A stretch of 64,000 bases of DNA from a bacterium (GTDB taxonomy: Bacteria > Armatimonadota > Chthonomonadetes > Chthonomonadales > Chthonomonadaceae). Each line of letters begins with the position of its first letter. The first letter of the stretch is position 1. Positions 16,676 to 19,576 of the stretch are shown piece after piece. Under the pieces are notes generated by a model, which was not told where the DNA came from, searched no databases, and worked only from the letters and a program-made list of their open reading frames with translations. The stretch spans positions 1-64,000 of the forward strand of contig JAJZFJ010000070.1 in the NCBI GenBank assembly GCA_021805395.1, in the 5' to 3' direction. Position numbers and translations under genes: made by a program.

Positions 16676-16990
16676 CTACTTGTGGTCTGCCTTGAGTGCC
16701 AGTTTTAGCTGATAAATTGCCTGCTCAATGTCTTTAACAGCCATTACCCTGTGACCCTGGAAATCGTGATCCACTTTTGTAGTCAGCATATGATCCAAAC
16801 GATTAAGAACTTTGATGCTTCGTACAATCTTCTGATGTGGCTCAAGCATCTTCTCGTGTCTTTCTCTACCGGCTGGTGCAGCCACTCCTGGTACCTGGGC
16901 AGCGGATGGTGTGGTTGAACCAAAACCCATCACAACGGCTAAACCTGCAAGTGAAGTAAACGCAGCAATGCGTTTAATGTTAATGTTCAT
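16676..16990 (-). CDS. Small secreted protein of unknown function
   Basis: 104 aa with a clear signal peptide (MNINIKRIAAFTSLAGLAVV, then a Ser/Thr/Pro stretch, likely cut after SAAQ). The mature part is about 70 residues, helical and His/Lys-rich (HEKMLEPHQKIVRSIKVLN, LTTKVDHDFQGHRVMAVKDI), with five histidines. Start supported by GAGGAG upstream, and a strong terminator follows. Helical periplasmic proteins of this size can be metal-binding or cell-envelope stress factors, but I recognise no family. Its leader holds a GAATAG-TATAT-CTATTC inverted repeat at 17013-17029. Confidence 0.8.
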   Translation of the reverse strand: MNINIKRIAAFTSLAGLAVVMGFGSTTPSAAQVPGVAAPAGRERHEKMLEPHQKIVRSIKVLNRLDHMLTTKVDHDFQGHRVMAVKDIEQAIYQLKLALKADHK

Positions 16991-17099: not shown

Positions 17100-17140
17100 G
17101 AGACACTCCCAATAAAGTTCATTATAATCGTGAACTTTAT
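17100..17140 (+). promoter_or_regulatory. Promoter with overlapping perfect palindrome (probable repressor operator)
   Basis: A -35-like GAGACA (17100-17105) and TATAAT (17123-17128) are 17 bp apart. The -10 lies inside the spacer of a perfect inverted repeat: ATAAAGTTCA (17112-17121), nine bases, TGAACTTTAT (17131-17140). A dimeric regulator bound here would block RNA polymerase. It precedes the asparagine-synthetase-like/radical SAM pair by about 100 bp. No regulator gene is adjacent. Confidence 0.65.
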
Positions 17141-17236
17141 ATTTATTGCTGTTTATACAGTATGTTATTCAGCTAGCAGGAAAACAAGCTCTGTCTCTCG
17201 AACCGTATGAGATATAGAGAATTAGGAGATACGACA

Positions 17237-18631
17237 ATGCTTCAAGGTATAGAGAGACTGGTTGATCTTGCAGGAGTATCCGCTTCAGGCACAGGAAATA
17301 CCAAACCCACAGAGTTACACAGCGCAATTCAAAATGCAGACATACAGTATCTGCAGATCACCAAAGGTCATTTTGCAGGCGTAGCACGTCAGGGTCATAC
17401 TGTGAGATTGGCACGTACAATTGGAATTCCATTGCGCTACTTTGTCGCAAAAATGTTCCATGGACCGTTTTTAATTGCAGCAGACCGTATCGACACTCTC
17501 TTTCAGTGGTGTTGCGAGCAGAAGATTGGGTGGCAGTTTGATCCTGCATACACCAGAATGGTTCCAGCACACTACCTACTTGAAATAGATCAGATAGGAT
17601 GTCCTGATCCCGCTCCAAGACACTTTAGGTTCTTTAATAATCCTGTTGAGACAGCAGATGCAAACATACAAAGTTGTGGCACCACATATATTTCAGCAGC
17701 AATGCATTCATTACAGCAATGGATTACTGAAGTGCCAGAGGGTGAACAGATCGGAATTGCATTCTCCGGAGGCATTGACAGCACCTCAGTCTGGCTGCTA
17801 GCACGGTATGTTATGTCTGCAGAAGGTAGAAACCCGGATAATATCAGAGCTTTTACTCTGGATCTGGGCGGTGGAAAAGATGCTGCCCAGGCAGAGGTGA
17901 TTGCAAAAGAGCTGGGACTGGAGCATACCTGGGAGCGAATTACTGCTTCTCCAGACAGTGTGAATATGCATGAGGCAATTGAGGTGATTGAAGACTATCA
18001 TCCTCTTGATGTACAGTGTTCCGCGGTCGCGCTCACGTTGCTCAAGGGAATTCGTGAGCGGTATCCAAACCTGAAATATCTGCTGGATGGAGATGGCGGT
18101 GATGAAAACCTGAAAGACTACCCTCTGGAAGATTCCGACCTCACTCTATCCAGTGTATTGAGAAATCCTCTTTTATACCAGGAAGGCTGGGGCGTGGATG
18201 CAATAAAGCACAGCCTCACATATTCCGGTGGGTTATCCAGAAGCTATGTGCGAACATACGCGCCAGCAAGGAAATACGGGTTTACCGCCTTCTCTCCATA
18301 TACAACAAGAGAATGCATAGCTGCAGCTACAGACATACCATACACTACCATCTGCAATGGAAGCATTGAAAGGCTCTATACCTTAAAAGGGGATATTGTG
18401 AAGGAGGGTACTAAACATGTTCTCGGCATTGAGATACCCACTCCTCCAAAACGACGATTTCAGGATGGCGCTGGAGGTGAGGTATATAAAACCTGGCGCA
18501 TCTCAAAATCCTGGTGCAGACAAGTGTATCTCTCACAATGGGAAGAGCGACTGAAAACTGCATGGGACACCGATGCAGAGAAGGTTTCAGGGAACGATCT
18601 TAACATTCCTCTACCAACATATTCACTCTAA
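17237..18631 (+). CDS. Asparagine-synthetase-like ATP-dependent amide-forming enzyme without glutaminase cysteine
   Basis: 464 aa. The C-terminal half is an AsnB-type ATP pyrophosphatase domain: PP-loop IAFSGGIDSTSVW (near residue 180), a second motif LDGDGGDENLKDYP in place of GEGADE, FSPYTTRECIAAA, and a late RRFQDGAGG. The N-terminal 150 residues resemble the class II glutaminase fold (GHFAGVARQGHTVRLART), but the protein begins MLQG, not MCG, so the nucleophilic Cys is absent. It should therefore adenylate a carboxylate and use ammonia or a substrate amine, as beta-lactam synthetases and similar enzymes do. ATG 17237 has AGGAG eight bases before; an upstream in-frame ATG (17207) lacks one. 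The stop directly abuts the radical SAM start. Substrate unknown. Confidence 0.85.
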   Translation: MLQGIERLVDLAGVSASGTGNTKPTELHSAIQNADIQYLQITKGHFAGVARQGHTVRLARTIGIPLRYFVAKMFHGPFLIAADRIDTLFQWCCEQKIGWQFDPAYTRMVPAHYLLEIDQIGCPDPAPRHFRFFNNPVETADANIQSCGTTYISAAMHSLQQWITEVPEGEQIGIAFSGGIDSTSVWLLARYVMSAEGRNPDNIRAFTLDLGGGKDAAQAEVIAKELGLEHTWERITASPDSVNMHEAIEVIEDYHPLDVQCSAVALTLLKGIRERYPNLKYLLDGDGGDENLKDYPLEDSDLTLSSVLRNPLLYQEGWGVDAIKHSLTYSGGLSRSYVRTYAPARKYGFTAFSPYTTRECIAAATDIPYTTICNGSIERLYTLKGDIVKEGTKHVLGIEIPTPPKRRFQDGAGGEVYKTWRISKSWCRQVYLSQWEERLKTAWDTDAEKVSGNDLNIPLPTYSL

Positions 18632-19576
18632 TTGGATCCTTCCGCATTAAACCAGCGAGATCTTGACAGGTGGATTCTGCAAAGCCGCCCAGTGAAAGCA
18701 GAAATAGACGCATACTCATGTGTTGCACAAATGCATGAGTATGAGCCACTGGGGAATGGGACAGACGTCTCATGCAATACCCTCTTTCTGGCGAATAGAG
18801 AATGCAGTTTCAGATGCATAATGTGTGATTTGTGGAAGCAAACTCTCAACAGAAACACTCCTGAGGGCGCTATACCCATCCAAATTAATTCCGCACTGGA
18901 GATGCTTCCCGAAGCAGATTGGATAAAGCTATATAATGCAGGCAGCTTCTTCGATTCCAGATCAGTTCCAGTAACCGATTACAACTCAATTGGAGAACTG
19001 ACGGCTTCCTATCGCAAAATAGTTGTAGAGAGCCATCCATACTACATTGCAGAGAGCTGCAAGCATTTCAGTGAACTCATATCAGGCAGGCTCGAAGTAG
19101 CAATTGGTTTAGAGTCCGCAATACCTGAGATTTTAAATAAACTTAACAAACGGTTCACAGTAGAGGATTTCAGAAAGGCAGCAGAAAGATTACATAATTG
19201 GGATATCGATATGCGAGTGTTCATCATGATACAGCCTCCATTCGAAAGCCCGGAGCAAAGCCTCAATAATCTGCTTTTCAGCCTGAAGGCAGCATTTGAT
19301 GCTGGTGCCAGAATCTGTTCAATGATACCAACACGCCTTGGAAATGGTGCCATGGAAATGCTGCATGGCCTGGGTTATGTATCGCCTCCAAACCTTAAAT
19401 TGATTGAAGAAGCTCTTAAATCTGCATTAGAACTTAAAAGAGGACTTGTAATTGTGGACACCTGGGATCTGGAATCAACAGGAAGCTGTGTATGCAGTCC
19501 ATTGCGAATAGAAAATATCATTCGTATGAATCGCTCCCAGCAACCATTACCTTTAACTCAGTGTACAGAATGCTGA
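18632..19576 (+). CDS. Radical SAM protein, Elp3/RaSEA-like
   Basis: 314 aa. The CX3CX2C cluster motif is in NRECSFRCIMCDLW (about residues 59-66). KLYNAGSFFDSRSVP, IVVESHPYYI and VAIGLESAIPEILNKLNKRF follow, a pattern I associate with the Elp3-related group that includes the archaeosine enzyme RaSEA; this subfamily call is from memory of motifs. The C-terminus has extra cysteines (TGSCVCSPLR and a final QCTEC) that could hold a second cluster or zinc. The start is a TTG immediately after the TAA of the upstream gene with no SD, so translation is probably coupled. The pairing with an amide-forming enzyme suggests a shared product. Confidence 0.82.
   Translation: MDPSALNQRDLDRWILQSRPVKAEIDAYSCVAQMHEYEPLGNGTDVSCNTLFLANRECSFRCIMCDLWKQTLNRNTPEGAIPIQINSALEMLPEADWIKLYNAGSFFDSRSVPVTDYNSIGELTASYRKIVVESHPYYIAESCKHFSELISGRLEVAIGLESAIPEILNKLNKRFTVEDFRKAAERLHNWDIDMRVFIMIQPPFESPEQSLNNLLFSLKAAFDAGARICSMIPTRLGNGAMEMLHGLGYVSPPNLKLIEEALKSALELKRGLVIVDTWDLESTGSCVCSPLRIENIIRMNRSQQPLPLTQCTEC

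Follow-up and report, generated by a model that had tools for sequence, protein, structure and literature searches.

The window, the whole 64 000-nucleotide stretch of DNA that was analysed, lies on contig C133 of a 4.16 Mb draft genome (G000). It carries two genes in the arrangement that a sequence-only reading had described, one for an AsnB-like amide synthetase that lacks the N-terminal Cys and one, starting with TTG, for a radical SAM (rSAM) enzyme (Table 1). An in-frame ATG is also found at 17207, upstream of the AsnB-like start that we chose, ATG 17237; the latter is the best start because homologues begin at the same place (MLxG; MLQG here) and because AGGAG lies at 17224. The AsnB-like stop codon (TAA, 18629-18631) is followed at the very next base by the rSAM start (TTG, 18632), so the abutment noted earlier is exact. 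Divergent to the pair, 5' of an inverted repeat, is a 104-aa open reading frame (16676-16990) with a signal-peptide-like start and no Pfam match.

Table 1. Coordinates of genes and sequence elements at the locus (positions are those of the window)
Feature	Position	Strand	Evidence
AsnB-like amide synthetase (464 aa) lacking the N-terminal Cys	17237..18631	+	PF00733 match, alignment, motifs, Foldseek
Radical SAM enzyme (314 aa), a distant homologue of RaSEA	18632..19576	+	TIGR01210, CX3CX2C, fold
Ribosome-binding site AGGAG	17224..17228	+	sequence
Perfect inverted repeat 10-9-10, ATAAAGTTCA-N9-TGAACTTTAT; candidate operator, this genome only	17112..17140	.	shuffling, genome scan
Sigma-70-like promoter GAGACA -17- TATAAT	17100..17128	+	10/12 consensus match

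The two genes had been placed under a palindromic operator, and that proposal survives only in part. The palindrome is perfect, with an arm length that was matched in 0/200 shuffles of the 200-bp upstream region, and the TATAAT (17123-17128) does fall within its spacer, downstream of a weak -35 (GAGACA at 17100). As a promoter of the two-gene locus this pair of hexamers is suggestive only, because as many promoter-like matches are expected by chance: 6 were found in the region against 6.1 in shuffles. The exact palindrome occurs once in G000, near-sites (≤3 mismatches) number 24 compared with 30 for the reversed control, and a search 5' of the homologues found no similar palindrome. We therefore rejected the operator as the member of a regulon; nor is the palindrome conserved.

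The AsnB-like protein belongs to the asparagine synthetase superfamily: it matches Pfam PF00733 above the cut-off (E 5e-15; 56.5 bits, cut-off 21), and has both the SGGxDS motif and the Glu-Tyr dyad. The match covers the second half only, and in the N-terminal half Pfam sees no glutaminase; in a 20-row alignment the N-terminal third is rich in invariant residues. The PP-loop reported earlier is present (SGGIDST here, SGGxDS in homologues), and DGDGGDEN-x3-Y and KRRFQ.G are kept in 28/28 homologues. The spacing of the Glu-Tyr pair (E290/Y295) equals that of Glu363/Tyr368 in PesC, an AsnB-like enzyme in which the dyad is required for catalysis (PMC13060819). The reported absence of an N-terminal catalytic Cys proved general: among the 26 homologues whose N-terminus is intact, none has Cys at position 2, and all begin with MLxG except G034 (MDHY). 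Against TIGR01536, the glutamine-dependent asparagine synthetase family, the protein scores 47 bits, below the cut-off of 267. A structure model (mean pLDDT 81, with residues 294-333 poor) gave full-length Foldseek matches to asparagine synthetase and beta-lactam synthetase. Because the adenylation motifs are intact (SGGxDS, E290/Y295, KRRFQDG) and position 2 is not Cys, the prediction that this enzyme forms amides in an ATP-dependent, glutamine-independent manner is well supported. By analogy with beta-lactam synthetases, its expected reaction is adenylation of a carboxylate followed by amide formation with ammonia or an amine.

The second protein has the CX3CX2C motif (here CSFRCIMC) and partial TIM barrel of the radical SAM superfamily, the motif being kept in 27/27 homologues. 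The extra C-terminal cysteines are less constant; the CxC...CxxC motif is found here and in most homologues but is absent from two complete copies (G016, G042). The best named family is RaSEA (TIGR01210), which it matches with 104 bits; the cut-off of 212 bits was passed by the rSAMs of 0/61 relatives. The structure model has a pLDDT of 94, and its nearest folds in Foldseek are MgmA, Elp3, MiaB and lipoyl synthase. In the tree, the window rSAM sits on a very long branch (1.96), whereas its AsnB-like partner does not. A gene closer to RaSEA than the window rSAM (173 bits) was seen on the linear plasmids pFRL5 of Streptomyces sp. F8 (L073:14809-15924) and pFRL3 (L074:11809-12924), where it heads a biosynthetic-looking cluster with a P450, SHMT, GT9, a carbamoyltransferase and RfaE2.

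Conserved pairing of the two genes in related genomes had been set beforehand as a test of the proposal, and it was found. We surveyed 291 genomes of the same phylum as the window (probably Armatimonadota). In a set of 61 genomes, 21 carried the rSAM and 22 the AsnB-like gene; the extra genome (G012) is a draft in which the AsnB-like gene lies on a 3.9-kb contig. Clustering of the open reading frames around the AsnB/rSAM pairs added a third gene, located directly 3' of the rSAM gene in about half, whose product is a PF04820 flavoenzyme. Across all 291 genomes, the AsnB-like gene occurs in 31, the rSAM in 30 (leaving out a weak 1e-22 match in G275) and the flavoenzyme in 29. All three genes are present in 27 genomes, two in 4 (G050, G066, G068, G071), one in 1 (G012) and none in 259, counts that shared ancestry inflates and that are not phylogenetically independent; the absences are cases in fragmented drafts. 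In 25 of 29 genomes the AsnB-like and rSAM genes share a contig and strand and lie at most ~800 bp apart. The flavoenzyme gene is directly 3' of the rSAM gene in 16, and the order AsnB-rSAM-halogenase is seen in 14, for example in G027 (C20:2660-6613). The proposal that an amide-forming, glutaminase-dead AsnB-family enzyme shares a pathway with an rSAM of the RaSEA/Elp3 superfamily is supported, but the idea of a self-sufficient two-gene cassette fails, since a third enzyme co-occurs.

The genes are dispersed in G015, G042, G000 and G002, yet all three are kept; retention in the unlinked genomes G015 and G042 favours function, rather than linkage, as the reason. That two unrelated genes are neighbours by coincidence could be argued from G003, G015 and G042, where the AsnB-like and rSAM genes are not adjacent, but the near-perfect co-occurrence across the 291 genomes, unlinked cases included, already contradicts this and leaves it a negligible probability. 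The AsnB-like and rSAM trees have several groupings in common, and the carriers span seven families, with a patchy distribution inside each; beyond the phylum, the search comprised one pattern scan of genome contigs. The clade of long rSAM branches is largely the clade in which the flavoenzyme gene has moved off. We rejected spread by plasmid or phage, as the AsnB-like gene matched no plasmid and no viral-contig match was seen, and likewise a role in anti-phage defence, for which PADLOC gave no match. A Polynucleobacter match was discarded, being of 35 residues only and outside the listed open reading frames.

Among solved structures, those nearest to the flavoenzyme profile are PltM (1e-68) and the tetracycline 7-halogenase CtcP (4e-66). 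The FAD motif GxGxxG is invariant, as is a Lys in G(L/N)K(R/W)GF that aligns with Lys87 of PltM, mutation of which abolishes activity (PMC6424973). Because the WxWxIP of PltM reads WxWxLR, halogenation is not assured. The copy in G000 lies on another contig (C108:16616-18166), with its start truncated by the contig end, and its best NCBIfam match, at 81 bits and far under the cut-off, is to the peptide-modifying monooxygenase QhpG. In G000, G001, G002, G008, G011 and G014 the flavoenzyme gene is beside or near gpsA, apart from the rSAM gene (L059:7613-8614, L062, L063, L064, L065, L066). Although gpsA and PhyH recur nearby, both are widespread families and were not counted as module parts. The flavoenzyme of G078, a genome in a single contig, is interrupted around residue 299 by a frameshift (L075:6517-8084), and G076 has a second, partial copy comprising the rSAM tail and a full flavoenzyme (C76:10033-11945).

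The sequence-only reading had offered a shared amidated product, possibly a modified nucleoside or a small metabolite. In the archaeosine pathway, ArcS moves lysine onto preQ0 in tRNA and RaSEA converts the adduct to archaeosine (PMC11298593). The similarity of the rSAM to RaSEA speaks for a tRNA or nucleoside modification of the archaeosine or queuosine kind. However, the ArcS domain (DUF5591) was found in 0 module genomes among the 61 searched, while 3/3 euryarchaeal controls were positive; three genomes that carry the module, G042 (98% complete), G050 and G036, give no full match to QueC, which is present in G000 and in most genomes without the module; the rSAM score is under the RaSEA cut-off; and a halogenase-type partner is a poor fit. 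We therefore rejected this link: an archaeosine role is unlikely, a nucleoside akin to archaeosine or preQ0 is not supported, and the broader nucleoside reading is highly improbable. Of the two products suggested, the small metabolite is the better guess. One bacterium of the same phylum, G051, has an ArcS-type DUF5591 above the cut-off (52 bits; C333:2772-3209) within an 1820-aa open frame.

As the AsnB-like ligase has no glutaminase, the nitrogen must come from another source, which could be an amino acid. The AsnB-like enzyme would couple a carboxylate to an amino acid such as lysine, after which C-N bond cleavage by the RaSEA-like enzyme would leave the nitrogen on the product as an amide or amidine. 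The loss of the glutaminase, RaSEA as the closest named rSAM family and the precedent of ArcS and RaSEA all point this way, but the rSAM scores only about half the RaSEA cut-off and free ammonia would serve too; we consider the scheme doubtful. The chemistry itself, C-N cleavage on an amino-acid adduct, may take place on another substrate; a full route of this logic on a small molecule, in which ligation and cleavage would be followed by decoration by the halogenase, appears slightly less probable than the donor scheme. Modification of a peptide or protein, in RiPP-like fashion or during cofactor maturation, we regard as just as doubtful as the amino-acid donor. Here the AsnB-like enzyme would amidate the C-terminus, cyclise the chain or form a nitrile, and the peptide would also be the substrate of the rSAM and of a flavoenzyme resembling QhpG. 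AsnB-like enzymes do cyclise lasso peptides and turn peptide termini into amides or nitriles (PMC13060819), and QhpG is the best named match of the G000 flavoenzyme. Conversely, the proteins of known structure closest in sequence to the flavoenzyme have small aromatic substrates, and clustering of open reading frames of at least 80 aa, which shorter precursors could escape, showed no recurrent small frame or protease beside the module.

The reading that we prefer, at a probability of roughly 0.6, is an uncharacterised three-enzyme pathway of AsnB-like enzyme, rSAM and flavoenzyme, patchy across one phylum, whose product would be a small amide metabolite. From the gene content, motifs, co-occurrence and operon order we infer the reactions, their order, the substrate and the product as follows. 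The AsnB-like enzyme would adenylate a carboxylate with ATP and form the amide via ammonia or the amine of a second substrate, or intramolecularly, in parallel with the beta-lactam and carbapenam synthetases; glutamine would not be usable. The RaSEA-type rSAM would then remodel the same intermediate using a 5'-deoxyadenosyl radical, possibly with C-N cleavage. Finally, the PltM/CtcP-type flavoenzyme may halogenate or oxygenate an electron-rich, probably aromatic moiety. A further pathway gene (carrier protein, transporter or flavin reductase) was not identified. In the literature searched we found no paper on the combination of AsnB-like, rSAM and halogenase-like enzymes. A co-inherited trio from superfamilies of hard chemistry (glutamine-free amide ligation, radical chemistry and flavin halogenation) suggests that a little-studied phylum makes a metabolite not yet described. 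The module is a clean, small target for expression, and would reveal a bacterial role for a RaSEA relative and an AsnB-type replacement of the glutaminase.

Each enzyme has a known counterpart from which it departs. With the beta-lactam and carbapenam synthetases of the clavulanate and carbapenem pathways, the AsnB-like protein shares an AsnB fold without glutaminase function and the ATP-dependent adenylation of a carboxylate; the folds match at E ~1e-12 to 1e-9, but there is no sequence-level match in a profile search of PDB sequences, and the partners differ, here an rSAM and a halogenase-type flavoenzyme. Asparagine synthetase B has in common PF00733, the PP-loop, the spacing of the Glu-Tyr dyad and an RxxFxDG-like C-terminal motif; the AsnB-like protein departs from it in lacking Cys2, in an N-terminal half where Pfam sees no glutaminase and in its TIGR01536 score. 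The rSAM shares CX3CX2C with RaSEA, but stands at half the curated cut-off, without an ArcS partner or a tie to QueC. The third gene product resembles the halogenases PltM and CtcP in its FAD motif and the invariant position of the catalytic Lys, and differs in WxWxLR and in its C-terminal region. The ammosamide gene cluster also combines an AsnB-like amidase (Amm20) with a flavin halogenase (Amm3); it has a PEARL, a precursor peptide and many more genes, and the parts of its description available to us mention no RaSEA-like rSAM (PMC12715798).
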